NCBI GenBank assembly: GCA_001442925.1
Contig: LDXX01000004.1
Location: 189,001 to 253,000, forward strand
Length of the DNA stretch: 64,000 nucleotides
Direction of reading: 5' to 3'
Source of the DNA: Candidatus Kryptonium thompsonii
Lineage (GTDB): Bacteria > Bacteroidota > Ignavibacteria > Kryptoniales > Kryptoniaceae
The position numbers were made by a program, and so were the translations under genes. Positions 47,934 to 59,239 of the stretch are shown here, in pieces (within the stretch, counting starts at the first letter, position 1; every line of letters begins with the position of its first letter). The notes under the pieces are model-generated. The model was not told the DNA's origin. It saw nothing but the letters and a program-made list of their open reading frames with translations, and ran no database searches.

Positions 47934-47961
47934 CAAAATTTGCGAAAAATTAAAACGATAA
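47934..47961 (+). promoter_or_regulatory. Possible sigma-28 (FliA) promoter for the chemotaxis operon
   Basis: CAAA (47934-47937) and AACGATAA (47954-47961) resemble the flagellar sigma-28 elements TAAA and GCCGATAA (6 of 8 at -10). The gap is 16 bases instead of the usual 15. It lies about 35 bases before the proposed start of the first chemotaxis gene, a fitting place for flagellar control. The match is imperfect and so tentative. Confidence 0.35.
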
Positions 47962-47996
47962 AGGGTGGCATAAATTTTGAACTGAGGAAAGGTGAT

Positions 47997-48419
47997 TTGA
48001 AAGAACGATGGAGATTTAGACAAGTGCAAAAGATCATTTTGCTTGTTGACGACAATGAGGTTGTGAGAATAACTTTGAAGGAATTTTTGACGCTGCTGGG
48101 CTTGGTGGTTATTGAAGCCAGCAATGGTAAAGAAGGACTTGAAAAAGCTCTCAGCAGTGAATTTCACATTTTGATCACTGACTACAAAATGCCTGATATG
48201 ACAGGAATTGAAATGTTAAAAGAGATTCTAAAGTTTAAGCAAAATTTTAAGGTTGTTATTTTAACTGGTTTTGCAAATGAGATTGACAACGAGGTTATTA
48301 AAAAGTTGGGTGTTGTCGCAGTTTTGGAAAAGCCCGTTGCTCTTGGGGTACTTGAAAAGTTGATAACTCAACTTTTAGCAAATTCAAACCATAATAATCA
48401 TAATAATAAAGAGGGATGA
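47997..48419 (+). CDS. Single-domain response regulator
   Basis: A protein of about 140 residues that is only a receiver domain: acidic pair in LLVDDNEVV, phospho-accepting D62 in ILITDYKMPDM, Thr in VVILTGFAN and Lys in VLEKPVAL. No output domain. The TTG at 47997 is chosen because AGGAAAGGTG precedes it; a GTG at 48024 also gives a complete domain. First gene of the chemotaxis operon, with its stop overlapping a possible start of the next gene. It may be a further CheY or a phosphate sink. Confidence 0.85.
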   Translation: MKERWRFRQVQKIILLVDDNEVVRITLKEFLTLLGLVVIEASNGKEGLEKALSSEFHILITDYKMPDMTGIEMLKEILKFKQNFKVVILTGFANEIDNEVIKKLGVVAVLEKPVALGVLEKLITQLLANSNHNNHNNKEG

Positions 48420-48424
48420 CAAAA

Positions 48425-48946
48425 ATGAAGAAGGCAATTTTTCTTCTGATATTTTTTCAATCCCTTGTCTTTGCTCAAAAGGGTACGCCACTGCAATATC
48501 TCTATTTGATGAAGTCTTTCAAGCCGGAGATTCAAAAGGTTGGAGTGATTTGTGATTTGAGTAGGAATCGGGGAATTGTAGAAAAGCTTCAACGTCCTGC
48601 TTTTTCGATCGGGGTTAAAATTATTGTGGTAGATGTAAGAGAATTGAAAGATGTATCACGAGGGTTTGAGGAGTTGGTGAATAATAGTGTTGATTTCATT
48701 TGGATTTTTAGTGAGGACGATGTATCCACGCAACCGGTAGCAAGGGAATATATTTTTAAGAATGCCCTTTTGAAGAAAATTCCGGTTGCGGTTTCAAATT
48801 TGGAACTCGTTAAAGAAGGCGCCCTTTTCTCACTTGAAGTTTCGGGGGAAGAGATTAAAGTTTATGTGAATAACAAAGTTGCAAGTGCGCTTCAACTAAC
48901 AGTTCCAGAAAACTATAAGGAGAGGGTTCAATATGTGGCTAATTAG
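48425..48946 (+). CDS. Periplasmic single-lobe binding-protein-like component
   Basis: A 173-residue exported protein with signal peptide [18 protein letters not shown]. The mature part ([17 protein letters not shown], then [28 protein letters not shown] and [21 protein letters not shown]) resembles one lobe of the ABC substrate-binding family PF04392 (DUF534/TrpX-like). No transporter genes are nearby. Instead it lies directly upstream of, and overlaps, the MCP gene, so it may present a ligand to that receptor. GAGGG nine bases before ATG 48425 supports this start over 48416. Function is inferred from context. Confidence 0.75.
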
Positions 48947-50804
48947 GAAATTCAACAATCTTAAATGGCGTTATAAAACTTTCATTGGGATTGAATTAAT
49001 TGTTATTGTTATCGCTTTGGTAGTTTCTGTTATTTATTCGATAATTCTTGGCAGGGAGATGGAAAGACAATTTTTAAAAAGAGCTGAATCTATAGTTAAA
49101 GGATTTTCATCTAATTCTATTTATGGAATCTTGCTGCAAGATACAAATCAGTTAAATCAGTTAATCGAAAGTTTTTACGAAGATGGTTTTACAAGATATA
49201 TCGCTGTGTATAGTTCTGATGGCAAGGTGCTTGTTGAGAAAAACCTTAAGATTTTACCTGATGAAAGAAAGAAGTTAAGGGATTTTAAGGGGGATATGGA
49301 TTACACAGAATTTTCGATAGAAGTTGGTCATACACTTGACCTTCAAGCTAAAGTTTACCGTGAAGCTAATCTCGTGGGGTATGTGAGATTTGGCTTTGCG
49401 AAGGATGAAATAAACGCGGTTATATCGAAGGCGCATTTTATAAATTTTGCTTTTATTGCGTTTGCAATTTTGCTTGGTTTAGCTTTTGGATATCTTGTAG
49501 TAGTATTATTTGTGAAGCCCGTTGAGAAAATTCGTCATGCGGCTGAATTAGTCGCACAAGGCGATATCAATGTTGCGATTGCTGATAAATCTGCTGAGGG
49601 GAATGATGAGATTGGATCCTTAATGAAATCATTTAATAAAATGGTTGAAAATATCAAAAACGCAATTGAGGAGGTAACTTCTCAACGAGAGGTAGCGGAA
49701 AAATTGCGAGTTGAAGCAGATGAAGCCAGAAAAAGAGCGCAGGAGCAGCAAAGATATTTAGAGGATCAATTCAGGAAAATCTCTGATGTGGTTGAATCTG
49801 TTGCAAATGGGGATTTAACGAAGGAGGCAGTTGCTGAAAAGGATGACGAAGTTGGGATGCTTGTTAAAAAACTTAACAAAATGATAAATGATTTAAGAGT
49901 TTTGATAAAAGAAATCATTGATTCGAGCAATGCGGTTGCTAATTCGACATCGCAGATAAGTAGCTCAGCCGAGGAAATGTCGGCAGCGGTCCAGGATCAA
50001 GCGAGGCAAATTTCGGAGGTTGTTTCAGCGATTGAGGAGATGTCAAAGACAATAATTGAAAACGCACATCAAGCGGAAAGGGTAGCAGAACTTGCCCGCG
50101 AGAATAGTTCATCTGCGACTGAGGGAAGCAAAGCGGTAATGTCAACAATTGAGCAGATGCATCGGCTTGCTGAGGTTGTGAGAAATTCAGCCCAAAGCGT
50201 TCAAATCCTTGGTAAAAGCAGCACCCAAATTGGCGAAATAATTGATGTGATTGAAGATATCGCAGATCAAACAAATCTGCTTGCACTTAACGCAGCGATT
50301 GAAGCAGCTCGAGCTGGCGAGCAAGGACGCGGATTTGCAGTTGTTGCCGACGAAGTTAGAAAACTGGCTGAAAGAACAATGAAGGCTACCAAGGAAATAA
50401 GCGATATGATAAAGAAAATACAAAACGATACGAATGAGGTTGTACAAATAATGAAATCGGGGTTGGAAGTTGCTGAAACAGGAATTCGGCTTGCGGATAA
50501 GGCAAATCTTGCGCTTAAACAAATTGTTCAAAATGCGGAAGATGTTGCAAGTTTAATTTCCGAGATATCGCGAGCAAATAAAGAACAATCAAGAGTTAGT
50601 GAGGACATAAGCAAGGCAGTTGAATCGATAAGTTCAATTGCAGAGCAGACATCAGCAGGGGTTCATCAAATTGCAAAAGCAGTTGATGATTTAAGCAAAC
50701 TTACGGAGAAATTGAGGCAAATAGTTATGCGATTTAACATTGGCGAGACAATCGATAGAGGAAGATATGAAAAGTTCGCAAGGGTTGGTGGGAATGGTTT
50801 ATAA
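48933..50804 (+). CDS. Methyl-accepting chemotaxis protein with two HAMP domains
   Basis: A 623-residue receptor: TM1 (about 18-38), a periplasmic sensor of about 130 residues (40-168, probably single-Cache-like), TM2 (169-193), HAMP 1 (194-246), a helical linker, HAMP 2 (about 283-336) and the methyl-accepting signalling domain. The tip sequence [20 protein letters not shown] binds CheA and CheW. No C-terminal CheR-tether pentapeptide is present. A strong AAGGAG site precedes the ATG. It overlaps the upstream periplasmic-protein gene by 14 bases, which suggests the two products act together. Confidence 0.94.
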
Positions 50805-50826
50805 AAAATAAAATTTGTGTTCAACA

Positions 50827-51336
50827 ATGAGCCTTCAAGATCTTGTAAACATAGGAAATTACGAAGAAGGGCTTCAGCTGGTAAGCTTTAAAATTGGGAA
50901 CGAGGAATTCGGTGTGAATATCCTCCAAGTTCAAGAAATAAATCGCCCAACTCAGATAACCCATGTTCCAAATATACCTGATTTCATTGAGGGTGTGATA
51001 AATTTAAGAGGGAAAATTGTTCCTGTTGTGAATTTGAGAAAGAAATTCGGACTCGGAGAGAAAGAATATGATAAAAATACCAGAGTTATTGTAGTTGAGC
51101 TAAATAACAAGATAGTTGGTTTTATAGTTGACAGTGTAAGTGAAGTTTTAAGGATTTCAAAAAAGGTGGTTGAGCCACCGCCAGAACTTATTTCTTCAGG
51201 AATTGATTCCGAATACATAACTGGAATAGCGAAGCTAGATGATCGACTTTTGATTTTGCTTGACCTTGAAAAAGTTTTAAGCGCTGAAGAAAAAGAATCT
51301 TTAAAAGAAGTTCCCGTTAAAACAGATGAAAATTAA
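50827..51336 (+). CDS. cheW: Chemotaxis adaptor protein CheW
   Basis: A 169-residue coupling protein that links receptors to CheA. QLVSFKIGNEEFGVNIL, VPNIPDFIEGVINLRGKIVPV (the core CheW signature) and VGFIVDSVSEVLRI are present. The C-terminal tail past about 155 is Glu/Lys-rich and not conserved. ATG 50827 is preferred over the TTG at 50815. It overlaps the FapA-like gene by 11 bases. Confidence 0.96.
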   Translation: MSLQDLVNIGNYEEGLQLVSFKIGNEEFGVNILQVQEINRPTQITHVPNIPDFIEGVINLRGKIVPVVNLRKKFGLGEKEYDKNTRVIVVELNNKIVGFIVDSVSEVLRISKKVVEPPPELISSGIDSEYITGIAKLDDRLLILLDLEKVLSAEEKESLKEVPVKTDEN

Positions 51337-52648
51337 AATTTCACCCGACAAACTCAGAGCTTATTTAATCGTTGAATCAAGAAATGAGATTGAAAATTTA
51401 TGTGTTGACGATATTTTAAATTTTGTTAATTCAAATGGCGTCGTTCAAGGAGTTAAAATTAGCGAAATCCAAGCTTTGCTTAACGATCCCAAGGAAGGAG
51501 AATTTTTAATAGCTGAGGGTAGCCCAGCTGTAAATGGGAAAGATGGATATATTTCTTTCGAATTTGATGTGAGCCGAAAGACCCTTGTTAGAAATGTCAA
51601 GGCTGGGGAGAAGATAGCGACAGTTTATCCGCCAACGCTTGGTGTTGATGGGTTTACAGTGACAGGCGAGATTTTAAAAGCTAAATCGGGAAAACCCGCT
51701 GATGTCTTTCTCGGTCAAAATGTGTCCATTTCGGAATCGGATAGTTCTGTTATAACTGCTACATCTGATGGAAATCTCGTCGTCAATGAAGATGGAACGA
51801 TCGAGGTTTCACCTGTTTTAAGCATTGAGGGTAATGTTGATGTAACCTTTGGGCCACTCAATTTTGTTGGAACATTGATAGTTAAGGGTGATATAAAATC
51901 GGGTGCTAAAGTTGATGTTGGCAAAAATCTTGAAGTTTATGGAAACATTGAGGATGCTGATGTTGAAGTTAAAGGTAATGCTCTCATAGGAGGTGGGTTT
52001 ATTGGCTATGGTAAGGGGCGACTTTATGTTCATGGTAATGTTTCGCTGAGATATATAACAAATCAGAATCTTGTTGCTGACGGGGATGTAACTATAAAAC
52101 GTGAGGCGGTTAACGCAAATATCACATGCGGTGGTAGGGTCATAGCAAAAGATGCGGTAATAATTGGTGGGACGATAATGTGTAAAGGTGGAATTGAGGC
52201 AAAAAGTATTGGGGGTGCGGAATATTCAAAAACGGTGATAATCATTGGGAGAAGAGATAAACAGGCGGAAAAATTAAAGAAGATAACGGCTGAAATAAGA
52301 CGGCTTGAGTCATATCTTGAGGGAGTTAAATCAGAGATATATGCACTTGCACGATTAAAGATTGATTGGGGAGAGCTTCCCGAAGATCAAGAAAGGCAAC
52401 TTCAAAATCTTATAAAATGGCGTGACGAGATACCAAGGCGACTTCAACACCTTGAAAAGTTGCGTAAGAATTTGCTTGATGATATGAGAAAGACGGAGAA
52501 AGCAAAATTGATTGTCTATGGCACAATATATAAAAACACTTACGTTGAAATAAATGGTGCAAAGGAAGAGATAAGTTTTGATATGAAAAACTCTGTCTTT
52601 GAGGAAGACATGGGAATAATTGTAAGAAGTAAATTACAAGAGGTATGA
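51326..52648 (+). CDS. FapA-family (DUF342) beta-helix protein
   Basis: A 440-residue cytoplasmic protein. N-terminal region (about 1-140), then a polymer-like right-handed beta-helix (about 145-310; VEGNVDVTFG, GTLIVKGDIKSGAKVDVG, NALIGGGFIG) and a long C-terminal coiled coil (about 310-390). FapA/DUF342 proteins in Vibrio and others affect flagellar assembly or polar location; the exact role is unsettled. Its position between cheW and cheR suggests a link to the receptor array or flagellum. It shares four bases with the next gene (ATGA). Confidence 0.85.
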   Translation: MKIKISPDKLRAYLIVESRNEIENLCVDDILNFVNSNGVVQGVKISEIQALLNDPKEGEFLIAEGSPAVNGKDGYISFEFDVSRKTLVRNVKAGEKIATVYPPTLGVDGFTVTGEILKAKSGKPADVFLGQNVSISESDSSVITATSDGNLVVNEDGTIEVSPVLSIEGNVDVTFGPLNFVGTLIVKGDIKSGAKVDVGKNLEVYGNIEDADVEVKGNALIGGGFIGYGKGRLYVHGNVSLRYITNQNLVADGDVTIKREAVNANITCGGRVIAKDAVIIGGTIMCKGGIEAKSIGGAEYSKTVIIIGRRDKQAEKLKKITAEIRRLESYLEGVKSEIYALARLKIDWGELPEDQERQLQNLIKWRDEIPRRLQHLEKLRKNLLDDMRKTEKAKLIVYGTIYKNTYVEINGAKEEISFDMKNSVFEEDMGIIVRSKLQEV

Positions 52649-53934
52649 GTAGGGCTTATGAGACAATAATTTCGGGTTTAAGCTCGTTTGACCCTGATGA
52701 GAGAAGGTTGTCGGTTGAAGCGAGCGTTAATTTTGGTGACAGAGAAGAAGTGCTTGGGAAATTGCTTGACCTTTTAAAAGACGAGGACAAAGGAGTTCGT
52801 GATGCAGTTGCAACTGCGCTTGTTTTAATCGCTAACAGGTTTGAGAAATCAAAAAAGAAAATCGTCGAGGGAATTTGTAACCTTATTTATTGCAAGGATA
52901 TTGGGGTGAGGAATTTAGCATCTGAACTGCTTTTAAAAATTGGTGAAGACGCATTTGATCAAGTTTCAAAGCTTGCAACTCATGAAGATAAAGATGTTCG
53001 AAAGATAGCTATTGATATAATTGGTTTAATGAAGGCTAAATTTGCTGTTGATTTTTTGGTGGAGAAATTAAACGATCCAGATCCAAATGTTGTAACATCA
53101 GTAATTGAAGCACTTAGAAATATTGGTGATGATAGGGTGACCAAGCATCTGATTGATATGTTTTCTAAATCGGAATTTGCCCGACTTCAAATAGTCGAAG
53201 CTCTTGGGGAAATTGGCAAAAGAGCAAAGGATAAAAAAGTTGTATGCAATTTTTTAGTTGAGGCATTTGAAATCAGCGATGATCCAATTTTGAAGGGCGC
53301 AATCGTTGAGGCACTGGGCAAGGCTGGCGATGAAAAATACATTGATTTTTTAATTGGTTTGATCCATGATGAGAATGTCGCCGTTAGGAAAATGGCAACT
53401 GTTGCAGTTGTCGAATTATGTGCTCAATTGGGGTATAAATTTGGAATGAGGGAGGATCTTTTCAAATTATTTTTTGAACAGGGCAAGGAAATTTTTGAGA
53501 GAACAGATGACTTAAACTTTAAAGTTTGCTTTTTGAAATTTGCTTCAGAACGGATCGAGCTTGACGAAGTCAAAAGCTTCATCATCCAACTTTTGGATGG
53601 AAATGGCGAGATATCTGAGAAGGCATTTGAAATTGTAAATGAGAGAGCGAAGGAGTTTATTTTGTTTTCGCTTAAAAATAGTGTTGATGATGAAAGCTTT
53701 ATCAATTTAGTGGAGTTAGCGCTGTATAATTCTAAAGAAATTTTTGAGGATTCCGTGTTGAAAAACTTGGTTCTTGAAAAGCTGTTGGAGATATTTAATA
53801 GGGTCGGGGCGGAGAAAAAAATCGCTGTTTTAAACCTTATTTCATCACTTGACAAAGTTATATTTGAGGAGATTTTGCAGAAGGTTAAAATGGATTCCGA
53901 TCCAATTTTAAAAGCTTATTTGATGTCAATTTGA
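52645..53934 (+). CDS. HEAT-repeat protein in the chemotaxis operon
   Basis: A 429-residue all-helical protein built of tandem HEAT/PBS-type repeats (about ten), with motifs such as LLDLLKDEDKGVRDAVATALV and FLIGLIHDENVAVRKMATVAVV. No enzymatic motif, signal peptide or membrane helix. HEAT repeats form curved protein-binding scaffolds. It starts inside the stop of the FapA-like gene, so both products are made together and may form a complex. The specific partner is unknown. Confidence 0.85.
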   Translation: MSRAYETIISGLSSFDPDERRLSVEASVNFGDREEVLGKLLDLLKDEDKGVRDAVATALVLIANRFEKSKKKIVEGICNLIYCKDIGVRNLASELLLKIGEDAFDQVSKLATHEDKDVRKIAIDIIGLMKAKFAVDFLVEKLNDPDPNVVTSVIEALRNIGDDRVTKHLIDMFSKSEFARLQIVEALGEIGKRAKDKKVVCNFLVEAFEISDDPILKGAIVEALGKAGDEKYIDFLIGLIHDENVAVRKMATVAVVELCAQLGYKFGMREDLFKLFFEQGKEIFERTDDLNFKVCFLKFASERIELDEVKSFIIQLLDGNGEISEKAFEIVNERAKEFILFSLKNSVDDESFINLVELALYNSKEIFEDSVLKNLVLEKLLEIFNRVGAEKKIAVLNLISSLDKVIFEEILQKVKMDSDPILKAYLMSI

Positions 53935-53961: not shown

Positions 53962-54837
53962 ATGTTTATTATGTTGATTCAGAGAAAAAATACGGATGTT
54001 TTAGCATTAACTGATGAAGAATTTTTGGAGTTGAGAAATTTTATTGTGAGGATCACGGGTATATATTTTCCAGAGAGCAAGAAGTATTTCATCGAATCAA
54101 AACTTCGGCCAAGGGTTGAGACGCTCGGTTTGAAAACATACGGTGATTATTTGAATTATCTAAGATATTCGCCATTTCGGGGAAGCGAACTTGATGTTTT
54201 GTTCAAGTTAATCACGATAAATGAAACATATTTCTTCCGTGATGAAGCGCAGTTTGATACAATTGAGAAAGAAATTCTGCCCAAGATTATAGAATCGAAG
54301 CCACGGAACGGTTTTAGAACTTTGCGAATTTGGAGCGCGGGATGTTCAACGGGGGATGAGGCGTATACAGTTGCGATGATTTTTCTTGAAAAGATAAAGC
54401 CAAAGTATCCAGATGTTAATGTTGAAATAATCGGCACGGATATCAACAGCGCAGTGCTTGATGTGGCGAGAAGAGGGATTTACAAACGATATTCGGTGCG
54501 ATATGTCCCTGAAAATTATATGAGAAAATATTTCACGATTTTAAACGATGAGGAGTTTCATTTAATTGAGGATGTTAAGAGGCTTGTTAAGTTTAAACAG
54601 CTTAATTTGATGGATAAGTTTCAAATGGTGACGATGAGAAATTTTGATCTTATTTTGCTAAGAAATGTTTTGATCTACTTTGATGAAAATTCGAGGCGTG
54701 AAGTTGTTTCGTGGATTTATGATTCGCTGAACAGGGGTGGTTATCTTATAGTTGGGTATTCGGAAAGTTTAAGAAATCTTACAAAGGCATTTAAAGTAGT
54801 TTATTTTGATAAAACGATCGGGTATAAAAAAGAGTGA
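53962..54837 (+). CDS. cheR: Chemotaxis receptor methyltransferase CheR
   Basis: A 291-residue SAM-dependent enzyme that methylates glutamates on the receptor signalling domain, giving adaptation. The N-terminal helical domain (about 15-85) is followed by NETYFFRD, the SAM motif RIWSAGCSTGDEAYT and LILLRNVLIYFDENSRREV. Without a receptor pentapeptide it should bind the methylation helices directly. ATG 53962; a second ATG three codons later is possible. It pairs with CheB at the end of the operon. Confidence 0.96.
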   Translation: MFIMLIQRKNTDVLALTDEEFLELRNFIVRITGIYFPESKKYFIESKLRPRVETLGLKTYGDYLNYLRYSPFRGSELDVLFKLITINETYFFRDEAQFDTIEKEILPKIIESKPRNGFRTLRIWSAGCSTGDEAYTVAMIFLEKIKPKYPDVNVEIIGTDINSAVLDVARRGIYKRYSVRYVPENYMRKYFTILNDEEFHLIEDVKRLVKFKQLNLMDKFQMVTMRNFDLILLRNVLIYFDENSRREVVSWIYDSLNRGGYLIVGYSESLRNLTKAFKVVYFDKTIGYKKE

Positions 54838-54848
54838 GGTGAGAGATT

Positions 54849-55217
54849 ATGACAAGAACAATACTTATTGTTGATGATTCGCCAACGATAAGAAAATTTG
54901 TCTCACTTGCTCTTGAAAACATGGGTTATAAAGTTTTGACCGCTTCGGATGGCATGGAGGTGTTTGAGGTTCTTTCACGGGCTGGATTTGTTGATCTTAT
55001 AATCACGGATATAAACATGCCAAATCTTGATGGATTTGAACTTATAAAATCATTGCGCTCCGATGAAAGATTCAAGAATATCCCGATAATAATATTGTCA
55101 TCCCTTTCCGATGCGGAAAGTATTGACACTGGATTAAAACTTGGGGCTAACTCTTATATCATCAAGCCCCTTAATGTTAAGAGAATTCAATATGAAGTTT
55201 CAAAATATCTAAACTAA
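54849..55217 (+). CDS. CheY-type response regulator (first copy)
   Basis: A 122-residue receiver-only protein: LIVDDSPTIRKF, phospho-accepting D54 in LIITDINMPNL, Ser/Thr in IIILSSLSDAES and Lys in YIIKPLN. It is a PilG/CheY relative. The switch region uses SS where the second copy uses TT. It is followed after 15 bases by a second CheY. Which of the two binds the motor cannot be told from sequence alone, but the second is closer to classical CheY. Confidence 0.9.
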   Translation: MTRTILIVDDSPTIRKFVSLALENMGYKVLTASDGMEVFEVLSRAGFVDLIITDINMPNLDGFELIKSLRSDERFKNIPIIILSSLSDAESIDTGLKLGANSYIIKPLNVKRIQYEVSKYLN

Positions 55218-55232
55218 AAGAGGTGAGGCTTC

Positions 55233-55616
55233 ATGGAAGATGGGAAGATCAGATTTCTTGTTGTTGATGATTCACCAACGATGAGAAGAATTGTAATAAA
55301 TGCTTTAAAAAACATTGGGTATACGGATATAGTTGAAGCAGAGGATGGAAAAGATGCGCTTGCTAAACTTTATGCTGAAAGAATTGATTTCATAATAACC
55401 GATTGGAACATGCCGAATATGGGTGGGCTTGAGCTCACAAAGGCGGTTCGCTCAGATCCAAATTTTGCAAACATACCGATTTTAATGGTCACAACCCGCG
55501 CGATGAAAGAAGATGTCCTTGAGGCGCTTCAAGCAAGGGTTAATAATTATATTGTTAAACCTTTTACACCACAGATTTTAAAAGAGAAGATTGAGCAAAT
55601 TTTAAAAACACTTTAA
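55233..55616 (+). CDS. cheY: Chemotaxis response regulator CheY (classical)
   Basis: A 127-residue receiver-only protein close to classical CheY: FLVVDDSPTMRRIV, D57 in FIITDWNMPNMGG, T in LMVTTRAMKED and K in YIVKPFTP. CheY-P binds the flagellar switch protein FliM and changes rotation. GAGGTGAGG precedes the start. Directly followed by CheZ, its likely phosphatase. Confidence 0.95.
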   Translation: MEDGKIRFLVVDDSPTMRRIVINALKNIGYTDIVEAEDGKDALAKLYAERIDFIITDWNMPNMGGLELTKAVRSDPNFANIPILMVTTRAMKEDVLEALQARVNNYIVKPFTPQILKEKIEQILKTL

Positions 55617-55631
55617 GGGGGAGGTAGAGCA

Positions 55632-56417
55632 ATGAGCTCAGGTGGGATGGGAGTTATAAAACAGATTGATTCACTTTTGAAAGAAATAGAGGAATTAAAG
55701 GCAATTTTCGTACTTGGTCAAAGGGTGATACCATTCCTCGAGGAATTATTTCATTTCATTAGAGAAGTTGGACCAATGCTTGAGGAAATAAATAAATCGC
55801 TTGAGGAAAGCTCAAGTAAAATTCCAAAGGCTTCAAATCAACTTGACACAGTTACAAGGACGACAGAAATGGCGACGACGGAAATACTGGATACGCTTGA
55901 TGAGATGAGTTTAAATTTCGGTGAGGTAAAAGGATTGATATCCACGATGAAACGTTGTTATGAAAAACAGGGGAGGCTGGCTAAAAGAATTAATAGACAT
56001 ATTGAAAACGGGGAATTTGAAAAAGTAAAGGAGTTATGGAGAAAGTTTTATGGGGTGTTGGAAAATTGCGGTGGTTTTGAGGAAGCGCTTGACAAATTAA
56101 CATATATAAAGCAAAGCGCAGACAATATAATGATCGCTTTGCAATTTCAAGATATAACGGCACAGCAAATTTCAGCTATTAACCATTTGATTGGCTCCGT
56201 TCAGGAGAAATTAACGGACCTTCTTGGGAAGTTAACAAATCTTGAGGTGAAGAGTTCAGAGCAAAAGTTTTCCGAAGTTAAAGATGAATCGTTCAACCCA
56301 ATGGCACAGTATGATAGATCAGGACTTAAGCAAAAAGCTATTGATGAAATTATTAAAGATAACGGGCTTACTTCTCAAAAAGAGATAGATAGACTGTTTG
56401 ATGGCGAGGAAAAATAA
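55632..56417 (+). CDS. cheZ: CheZ-type CheY-phosphate phosphatase
   Basis: A 261-residue, almost wholly helical protein with a coiled-coil character. ALQFQDITAQQISA holds the CheZ catalytic pair, D174 and Q178 (D-x-T-x-Q). The C-terminal tail TSQKEIDRLFDGEE resembles the CheY-P-binding peptide of FliM and of many CheZs (consensus S-Q-x-E-I/V-D-x-L). It lies between cheY and cheA. Its centre is divergent from proteobacterial CheZ, so the name rests on these two motifs and on position. Confidence 0.87.
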   Translation: MSSGGMGVIKQIDSLLKEIEELKAIFVLGQRVIPFLEELFHFIREVGPMLEEINKSLEESSSKIPKASNQLDTVTRTTEMATTEILDTLDEMSLNFGEVKGLISTMKRCYEKQGRLAKRINRHIENGEFEKVKELWRKFYGVLENCGGFEEALDKLTYIKQSADNIMIALQFQDITAQQISAINHLIGSVQEKLTDLLGKLTNLEVKSSEQKFSEVKDESFNPMAQYDRSGLKQKAIDEIIKDNGLTSQKEIDRLFDGEEK

Positions 56418-56450
56418 TTGGCATAACTCAAAATTAACAATATTTCGCAT

Positions 56451-58163
56451 ATGAATATACCGGCAATTTTTGATGATGAGATGAAAGAAATAGTCGAAAG
56501 CTTCATAGTTGAAACGAAGGAATTGCTTGAAAAACTTGACAATGATCTTGTTGAACTTGAAAAAAGACCCGAAGATTTGGAGATTTTAAACGCTATCTTC
56601 AGGTATGTTCATACAATTAAGGGGACATCGTCTTTTATTGGATTTGAACAGATGAGTGAACTCGCGCATAGATTTGAAGATGTTCTCAACAAACTTCGCA
56701 AAGGTGAGCTTAAGGTTAGATCAGATATAATGGATGTAATGCTTGAGGCGCATGATTTGCTTAAGGTTTTACTTTCGAAACTTGAAAAGAAAGATTTAAC
56801 GCCGATCGAGATAGAAAATGTTATTTTGAAGCTTGAGAAGATAGCCCGCGGTGAAGTTATAAATAGGGATGAAGAAGCCACAGTTGAGGGCGAAAAATTT
56901 TCAACGGTCAACGATGGAGCAGATGTTTTACAAAAGGTGGGGTCAAAAGTGATTGATAAGACGATAAGAATCGATGTTGAACGGCTTGATGAGTTGATAA
57001 ATCTTGTTGGTGAGCTTGTGCTTGGGCGAAATAGATTGATGCAGATAATTTCGGGCGTCGTTGAGAAATTTGAGGGTGAAGCGGCAACTCGTGAGTTAAT
57101 TGACACAGTTTCGCAAATTGAGTATTTAACTTCCGAATTACAAACCGTTGTGATGCGCGCAAGGATGTTGCCGATCGCAAGAGTTTTCAACAAATTCCCG
57201 AGAATGGTCAGAGATCTTGCAAGGGAAATGAATAAAAAGGTTGAGCTTTTGATATACGGTGAGGAAACCGAGGTTGATAAATCAGTTATTGAGTATATCT
57301 ATGATCCACTCGTTCATATAATAAGAAATGCAATTGACCATGGGATTGAATCGCCAGAGGAAAGAATTAAAGTTGGAAAACCAGAAAAGGGCAAGATAAT
57401 TCTAAAAGCTGAGCATGAGGGAAATTATATTGTTATAACCGTTGAGGACGATGGCCGTGGGATCGATCCGGATAAAATCAGAAAAAGGGCGATCGAAAAA
57501 AATCTCATCACTGAACAAGAGGCGATGTCAATAAGCGATAAGGACATTTTGAATTTCATTTTTATCCCGGGTTTCAGCACTGCAAGCAAAGTCACGAATG
57601 TATCAGGGCGTGGCGTTGGACTTGATGTTGTGAAGGCAAATATAATGAAATTAAACGGTATAATTGATCTTCAATCGACCCCAGGGGTTGGGACCAAATT
57701 TATATTGAAGTTGCCTTTAACCCTTGCTATAATTCAAGGGTTGCTCGTTGGTGTGGCTGGTGAAATTTTCATAATTCCATTATCATCAGTGGTTGAGGTT
57801 GTTAGAGTAAAACCTGATCAAGTTCATTCGATTAAAGGCAGGGAAATAATACGCCTTAGGGATTCGATCTTACCACTTGTAAGGTTAGAGGAAATTTTTA
57901 ATTTGAAATCAAATGATCATAGAGAGAAGAGAAATTTTTACATTGTTGTTTTAGGGCTTGCTGAAAAGAAAATCGGTTTAGTTGTCGACGCCTTGATCGG
58001 TCAAAAGGAAGTTGTGATAAAATCGCTTGGTTCATATTTAAAAAATGTCAAGGGGATTGCAGGCGCTACAATTCTTGGGGATGGGACGGTAAGGTTGATA
58101 ATTGATGTAGCTCAAGTTTTTAAAATGTCAGCGAAAAACTCTTTGGATTTTATAAAGCTTTAA
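56451..58163 (+). CDS. cheA: Chemotaxis sensor histidine kinase CheA
   Basis: A 570-residue kinase: Hpt/P1 domain (about 1-115, phosphorylated H54 in RYVHTIKGTSS), a short linker with no P2 CheY-docking domain, P3 dimerisation (about 170-235, ERLDELINLVGELVLGRNRL), P4 HATPase (HIIRNAIDHGIESP, EDDGRGIDPDKI, GRGVGLDVV) and a C-terminal CheW-like P5 (about 430-565). It transfers phosphate to CheY and CheB. The absence of P2 makes it shorter than E. coli CheA. Confidence 0.97.
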   Translation: MNIPAIFDDEMKEIVESFIVETKELLEKLDNDLVELEKRPEDLEILNAIFRYVHTIKGTSSFIGFEQMSELAHRFEDVLNKLRKGELKVRSDIMDVMLEAHDLLKVLLSKLEKKDLTPIEIENVILKLEKIARGEVINRDEEATVEGEKFSTVNDGADVLQKVGSKVIDKTIRIDVERLDELINLVGELVLGRNRLMQIISGVVEKFEGEAATRELIDTVSQIEYLTSELQTVVMRARMLPIARVFNKFPRMVRDLAREMNKKVELLIYGEETEVDKSVIEYIYDPLVHIIRNAIDHGIESPEERIKVGKPEKGKIILKAEHEGNYIVITVEDDGRGIDPDKIRKRAIEKNLITEQEAMSISDKDILNFIFIPGFSTASKVTNVSGRGVGLDVVKANIMKLNGIIDLQSTPGVGTKFILKLPLTLAIIQGLLVGVAGEIFIIPLSSVVEVVRVKPDQVHSIKGREIIRLRDSILPLVRLEEIFNLKSNDHREKRNFYIVVLGLAEKKIGLVVDALIGQKEVVIKSLGSYLKNVKGIAGATILGDGTVRLIIDVAQVFKMSAKNSLDFIKL

Positions 58164-58174
58164 CGGGTATACTT

Positions 58175-59239
58175 ATGAACATAAATGGTGAAATAAAAGT
58201 TTTGGTTGTTGATGATTCCGCATTTATGAGGAAATCAATCACAATGATGCTTGAATCGGATCCACAGATAAAAGTTGTTGCAACCGCAAGGGATGGGCTT
58301 GAGGCAATTGAGAAGATAAAAACATTTAAACCCGATATCGTTACGCTTGATGTTGAGATGCCAAGGATGGATGGATTGACCACCTTGAAAATTATAATGA
58401 ACGAATGCCCTGTTCCAGTTTTAATGGTGAGCTCTTTGACAACCGAAGGGGCTGAAGCAACGCTTGAAGCTTTAAAACTTGGGGCGGTTGATTTTATACC
58501 GAAGCAACTTTCTTATGTCTCGCTTGACATAATAAAAATCAAAGATGAATTAATTCAGAAAGTAAAGTCAATTGTAAATAGCAAATATATCCGCAGGAAA
58601 ATTTACAGACATGAGGTTAAATCAAGCAAGGATGTAAAATTTAAACATGTTAAGAAAAATTTTGAGGTTGTCGCCATAGGTGTTTCAACAGGAGGTCCAG
58701 TTGCGCTTCAGGAAGTTTTATCAAGGATACCCGAAAATTTTCCCGCTGGAATTGTCATAGCTCAACATATGCCCCCAAACTTTACAAGATTACTTGCGGA
58801 AAGGTTAAACTCAATAAGTAAAATTGAGGTCAGAGAAGCTCAAACTGGCGATAAGGTTCGAGCGGGGCTCGCATTGATAGCGCAGGGTGGGAAAAACTTA
58901 ATTTTTGAGAAGGTTTTCGGTGAGAAAATAGTTAAGATAGCTGATAAACCAGACACACTTTACAAACCGTCGGTTGATGTTATGATGGAATCTGCTTCAG
59001 AAGTTTTCGGGGATAAAGTTCTCGGTGTGATAATGACAGGAATGGGAAGAGATGGTGTTGAAGGATTGAAAAAAGTAAAAGAAAAGGGTGGGTATATAAT
59101 TGCGCAAAATGAGGAAACATGTGTGGTTTACGGCATGCCTAAAGCGGTCATTGATGTTGGGCTTGCTGATAGTATTCTTCCACTTGAAAAAATTGGCGAG
59201 GCAATTGTAGAGATAGTGAGAGAAAGAAAAGAAATTTAA
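58175..59239 (+). CDS. cheB: Chemotaxis methylesterase/response regulator CheB
   Basis: A 354-residue two-domain protein. Receiver (1-125): VVDDSAFMRKS with D59 in IVTLDVEMPRM. Methylesterase/deamidase (about 165-354): catalytic Ser in GVSTGGP, His in AQHMPPNFT and Asp in MTGMGRDGVEG. It removes receptor methyl groups when phosphorylated by CheA, balancing CheR. Last gene of the chemotaxis operon. The TAA overlaps the stop of the convergent methyltransferase gene. Confidence 0.97.
   Translation: MNINGEIKVLVVDDSAFMRKSITMMLESDPQIKVVATARDGLEAIEKIKTFKPDIVTLDVEMPRMDGLTTLKIIMNECPVPVLMVSSLTTEGAEATLEALKLGAVDFIPKQLSYVSLDIIKIKDELIQKVKSIVNSKYIRRKIYRHEVKSSKDVKFKHVKKNFEVVAIGVSTGGPVALQEVLSRIPENFPAGIVIAQHMPPNFTRLLAERLNSISKIEVREAQTGDKVRAGLALIAQGGKNLIFEKVFGEKIVKIADKPDTLYKPSVDVMMESASEVFGDKVLGVIMTGMGRDGVEGLKKVKEKGGYIIAQNEETCVVYGMPKAVIDVGLADSILPLEKIGEAIVEIVRERKEI

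Follow-up and report, generated by a model that had tools for sequence, protein, structure and literature searches.

A single-lobe PF04392 protein as a candidate periplasmic subunit of its neighboring chemoreceptor in Candidatus Kryptonium thompsonii

Some membrane receptors get their information from a separate periplasmic protein, as Tar does from MBP and LuxQ from LuxP. In the YfiR-YfiN system of Pseudomonas and E. coli (YfiN is also called TpbB or DgcN), a small exported protein is encoded just upstream of a Cache/PAS-HAMP sensor, in an overlapping gene, and the output is c-di-GMP. YfiR binds the periplasmic PAS domain of YfiN and so represses it, with the YfiR C-terminus contacting a hydrophobic motif on the PAS surface (AAVVF), and many divergent Yfi systems do without the outer-membrane protein YfiB (PMC3375315). 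MCP domains were mentioned among the outputs of divergent Yfi homologs by Malone et al. 2012. YfiR belongs to family PF13689 and has disulphides, and its crystallographers reported that the nearest structures were 3LFT and 3LKV, which are Trp/Phe-binding PF04392 proteins (PMC4655355; PMC4887326). Pairs consisting of a YfiR-like protein and a CHASE8 histidine kinase are represented by the NCBIfam models NF053591/NF053592.

Single-domain SBPs are a further point of comparison, represented by RmSBP of Rhodothermus marinus (PDB 5z6v, 6k1w, 8wgk and 8wxm). According to the author of the 2023 RmSBP paper, genes for single-domain SBPs are often found near an MCP gene, and RmSBP may require partner molecules; when its crystals were soaked with a mixture of amino acids and with metals, no physiological ligand was seen, and the surface at the amino-acid site is unlike that of two-lobe proteins (PMC10805632). 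That paper proposes no mechanism, and the type of the partner sensor, co-inheritance and a link to YfiR are not described there.

We analyzed a window of 64,000 nucleotides from Candidatus Kryptonium thompsonii, in which a gene for a small protein of this kind lies in a chemotaxis operon. The features concerned, numbered from the first letter of the window, are as follows.

47940-48419, plus strand: response-regulator receiver (REC) protein directly upstream of the small protein, start codon uncertain (ORF, Pfam)
48425-48946, plus strand: exported single-lobe ABC_sub_bind (PF04392) protein, 173 aa (ORF, Pfam, predicted structure, RmSBP match)
48425-48478, plus strand: probable signal peptide of 18 residues, no lipobox (read from sequence, not program-predicted)
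48933-48946, plus strand: 14-base overlap between the small-protein gene and the MCP gene (ORF coordinates)
48933-50804, plus strand: methyl-accepting chemotaxis protein (MCP), 623 aa, two HAMP stretches (ORF, Pfam)
49044-49430, plus strand: periplasmic single-Cache sensor domain (sCache_4/CHASE8-like), about residues 38-166 of the MCP (Pfam, predicted structure, profile comparison)
49122-49142, plus strand: hydrophobic motif YGILL-QD, at the position of YfiN's YfiR-binding AAVVF (alignment)
50088-50639, plus strand: MCP signalling domain, PF00015 (Pfam, strong MCPsignal match)
50815-51336, plus strand: CheW, the next operon gene after the MCP (Pfam)
53962-59239, plus strand: CheR, two REC proteins (read as CheY), CheZ, CheA and CheB (ORF, Pfam)

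The gene order in the operon is thus REC, SBP, MCP, CheW, FapA, HEAT protein, CheR, two REC proteins, CheZ, CheA, CheB. The FapA-family gene (51326-52648) and the HEAT-repeat gene (52645-53934) that separate cheW from cheR have no obvious role in chemotaxis. A sequence-only reading of this DNA had described an exported protein resembling one lobe of PF04392 proteins, overlapping a double-HAMP MCP gene by 14 bases within a full chemotaxis operon that has no ABC transporter genes nearby, and all of these points stand: the coordinates and Pfam agree on the overlap, the Che proteins were identified as listed, and we found no ABC transporter gene in the che operon. The overlap is retained in all seven genomes of the genus, suggesting translational coupling of the two proteins; for comparison, the E. 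coli yfiR and dgcN (yfiN) genes overlap by 11 bases. A second in-frame ATG for the small-protein ORF lies at 48416, and several homologs of the small protein are preceded by receiver-like genes, either degenerate or intact.

The only Pfam family matched by the small protein is PF04392, which it hits at 40.4 bits (cut-off 25.9). The match spans profile positions 122-258 of 293, which is the C-terminal lobe only, so this is not a complete two-lobe binding protein. The NCBIfam model for the tryptophan-binding protein TrpX is likewise matched over its C-terminal lobe, far under the cut-off. Its start resembles a signal peptide when read by eye, and the protein is probably exported. Its predicted structure (pLDDT 90.6) aligns to the C-terminal lobes of the Trp/Phe-type proteins 3lkv, 3lft and 6hni at Z of about 20, and more closely to RmSBP (Z 24, rmsd 1.4 over 151 residues), which it also matches in sequence (phmmer, 4.8e-25). 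It therefore shares both family and fold with RmSBP and has the features of the single-domain SBPs, namely a single alpha/beta domain, apparent export and a location near an MCP gene. Since single-domain SBP genes near MCP genes are already published (PMC10805632), the arrangement itself is not new; the statement in the sequence-only reading that it is not a standard one does not survive, also because a small periplasmic protein with a dedicated Cache/PAS sensor is the arrangement of YfiR-YfiN (PMC3375315).

The MCP sensor is predicted to form one Cache/PAS domain flanked by two membrane helices (pLDDT 80), and its structural matches include WalK, CitA, DctB and LuxQ. The sensor fragment scores 22.9 with sCache_4 (cut-off 22.1), and the homologous loci L070, L076 and L131 also exceed this cut-off, as L071 does for CHASE8. 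By profile-profile comparison, the periplasmic part of the MCP matches the CHASE8 sensors of YfiR-partnered kinases with a probability of 96, an E-value of 2.2e-9 and a score of 55, compared with a maximum of 15.6 among 30 column-shuffled decoys. On these profile comparisons we identify the sensor as a single-Cache domain and as a homolog of the YfiR-partnered CHASE8 domains. The small-protein gene thus adjoins a Cache-HAMP sensor gene of the kind found in Yfi systems, and in the same phylum genes for PF13689 (YfiR) proteins lie directly upstream of CHASE8-HAMP kinases, in the same order as in our window. Four genomes (G063, G067, G100 and G200) contain both a PF13689/CHASE8-kinase pair and a single-lobe/MCP pair. 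The two kinds of pair differ in output (a kinase rather than an MCP) and in the family of the small partner.

We also considered the YGILL-QD stretch, which aligns with AAVVF of YfiN, as a marker of a YfiR-type site. Most partner MCPs are likewise hydrophobic at this position, but so is a control, E. coli BarA, which carries a similar stretch (YGMSL-QN) and for which we know of no YfiR-like partner. We therefore rejected the motif as proof and regard it as compatible with a YfiR-type contact, not as diagnostic of one.

Some weaker homologs of the sensor have other neighbors. At four loci a different small exported protein is encoded 12-20 bases upstream (L211:1363-1869, L212:2839-3408, L216:3741-4286 and L219:3369-3968); three of these are weak matches to the YfiR profile (13-24 bits), the fourth matches neither profile, and all may represent further partner families. 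At another locus (L221:1677-2558) the sensor homolog overlaps an exported lipoprotein of full size, apparently a PhnD-like binding protein, making another binding-protein/sensor pair.

The small protein and YfiR belong to different Pfam families: PF13689 has no match to the small protein at E-values up to 1, and none in the whole genome at 1e-5. Structural comparison gives YfiR a Z of 10.5 over 133 residues, spanning residues 1-151 of 155, but lobes of ordinary type-I binding proteins score equally high. A profile of the small protein scores 25.8 against YfiR (E = 0.0017; the best of 60 decoys reached 20.3), and an alignment that includes E. coli YfiR has an invariant glycine and asparagine near the C-terminus (G132 and N149). 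The hhalign probability is only 10-15, so we did not accept the direct profile match as firm evidence and kept it as weak support. Taken with the structures, we consider common ancestry of the small protein and YfiR probable.

To ask how constant the gene pair is, we pooled three surveys, giving 52 single-lobe genes in 51 genomes. An MCP of the same type is directly downstream of 49 of them: 48 by computation, with spacings of -47 to +204 bases to the same-strand sensor gene, and one by reading (L129, where an ATG lies ~45 bases past the stop codon). Another single-lobe gene, in G789, is cut by the end of its contig, and the 5' end of an MCP gene is at the edge of another contig of that genome. 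This leaves two true exceptions: L072 in G285, where the MCP is on another contig, and L128, which is a second copy in G816. Both of these genes without an MCP downstream (L072:5913-6473 and L128:1991-2710) are followed 168-248 bases further on by a similar exported protein that looks carbohydrate-binding. Within the order, all 20 homologs (seven in the genus and 13 in a second family) have an MCP of the same N-terminal architecture as the next gene. The contig-wide genome scan covered Kryptoniota-type genomes. Reading frames are intact across all 52 single-lobe genes. Chance adjacency is not an option: in a 2.6-Mb genome that has two MCP genes it would be rare, yet of the 52 homologous genes 49 show it. 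Conserved adjacency in relatives without a permease had been named beforehand as one of the tests on which the idea could fail, and it proved to be strongly conserved.

The two components are also inherited together. We searched 391 genomes of the class twice, with a profile of the small protein and then with one restricted to the periplasmic part of the MCP sensor. Hits to the small protein (131 bits or more) and to the sensor (58 bits or more) occur in an identical set of 34 of the 391 genomes and nowhere else, distributed patchily across seven families (f1, f2, f4, f6, f13, f17 and f20) within which genomes are not independent; the next best sensor match scores 39 bits. Having been built from partners, the sensor profile favors them, but this leaves unexplained the absence of a close sensor from every genome that lacks the small protein. 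We tried a mirror-tree comparison of 47 pairs as a pointer to contact with the sensor and rejected it: distances among the small proteins correlate equally with those of the sensor (0.893) and of the cytoplasmic half of the MCP (0.895), so the result says nothing about the contact site.

From these observations, with roughly a 70% probability, we suggest that the small protein is a dedicated periplasmic subunit of the adjoining MCP, the two forming a two-part chemoreceptor that is built like YfiR-YfiN but has an MCP as its output. The suggestion rests on the adjacency, the co-inheritance, the homology of the sensor to CHASE8, a possible likeness of the fold to YfiR and a gene overlap like that of yfiR/dgcN; the physical contact, the direction of its effect and the stimulus are inferred. 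By this scheme the overlapping genes would cause the small protein to be made together with the MCP; after export it would dock on the single-Cache domain; docking or release would be set by a periplasmic condition or ligand, and would shift the signal passing through the two helices and HAMP to CheA, so steering swimming. It would resemble MBP-Tar and LuxP-LuxQ in having a separate periplasmic informant, and LuxQ has the fold of the MCP sensor, but the small protein has one lobe where MBP and LuxP have two, and MBP also serves a transporter. The idea of a two-part receptor in the sequence-only reading is therefore upheld in part, as regards conserved adjacency without a permease and the lack of a PF04392 transporter protein elsewhere, and the claim that the arrangement is unusual falls away.

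Other explanations have to be set against this one. The family name ABC_sub_bind invites the idea that the small protein is a part or a leftover of some ABC transporter whose genes lie elsewhere, and that it is beside an MCP gene by chance. A whole-genome search, however, found no second PF04392 protein, so there is no PF04392 transporter elsewhere in the genome for the small protein to serve. Permeases adjoin the two-lobe homologs, not the single-lobe ones: at 14 two-lobe loci inspected by eye, six are followed by an apparent permease gene, three are fused to a permease with an ATPase next, and none is followed by an MCP, and at the one locus inspected in a plasmid search the two-lobe gene is annotated in an SBP-permease-ATPase series. 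With adjacency conserved and frames intact in the single-lobe genes, the transporter explanation is already contradicted and we regard it as hardly credible. It is also improbable, if less extremely so, that the small protein is a helper with no role in signalling, acting in MCP folding or stability or sharing the operon for expression only. Co-inheritance and coupled translation, taken alone, would fit a helper equally well, but the sensor type with which the protein travels is the one for which control by a periplasmic protein is known, and the weaker sensor homologs have their own small exported proteins just upstream, some of them distantly YfiR-like.

A more serious rival, though still an unlikely one, is that the half-protein carries a ligand, binding a small molecule on its open face and docking on the MCP in the liganded form as MBP does on Tar and LuxP on LuxQ, with the sensor perhaps supplying the second lobe. 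In proteins of the TrpX type the C-terminal lobe does contribute to the ligand site, the structural matches of the sensor include LuxQ, and YfiR itself binds L-Trp and vitamin B6 weakly (Kd 35-77 mM; PMC4887326). Yet a single lobe cannot close round a ligand alone, and both the RmSBP soaks and its altered amino-acid site speak against this role (PMC10805632).

We found no paper that brings RmSBP and YfiR together in the literature searched. MCP neighbors were already known from the RmSBP work and MCP outputs of Yfi systems from Malone et al. 2012; what is added here is a PF04392 half-protein as the partner in the YfiR position, the homology of the sensors, and co-inheritance. A wider proposal, on which we are evenly divided, is that single-lobe PF04392 proteins and YfiR form one superfamily of half binding proteins that regulate single-Cache sensors, the pair serving as a general-purpose input module, coupled in different systems to chemotaxis, histidine-kinase or c-di-GMP outputs, so that half-size SBPs would be regulators and not degenerate transporters.

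For the organism, the receptor could matter considerably. The genome has two flagellins and only two MCPs, so the stimulus of the MCP described here may dominate its chemotaxis. The other MCP (L025:1-2730; G000, contig C3, about 207026) appears from its sequence to carry a hemerythrin-like domain at the C-terminus and is a possible oxygen receptor. More broadly, our reading would carry the YfiR-YfiN idea over into the chemotaxis of Kryptoniota and Rhodothermia, and it offers a testable function for a family that is represented by several crystal structures but has had no role assigned to it.
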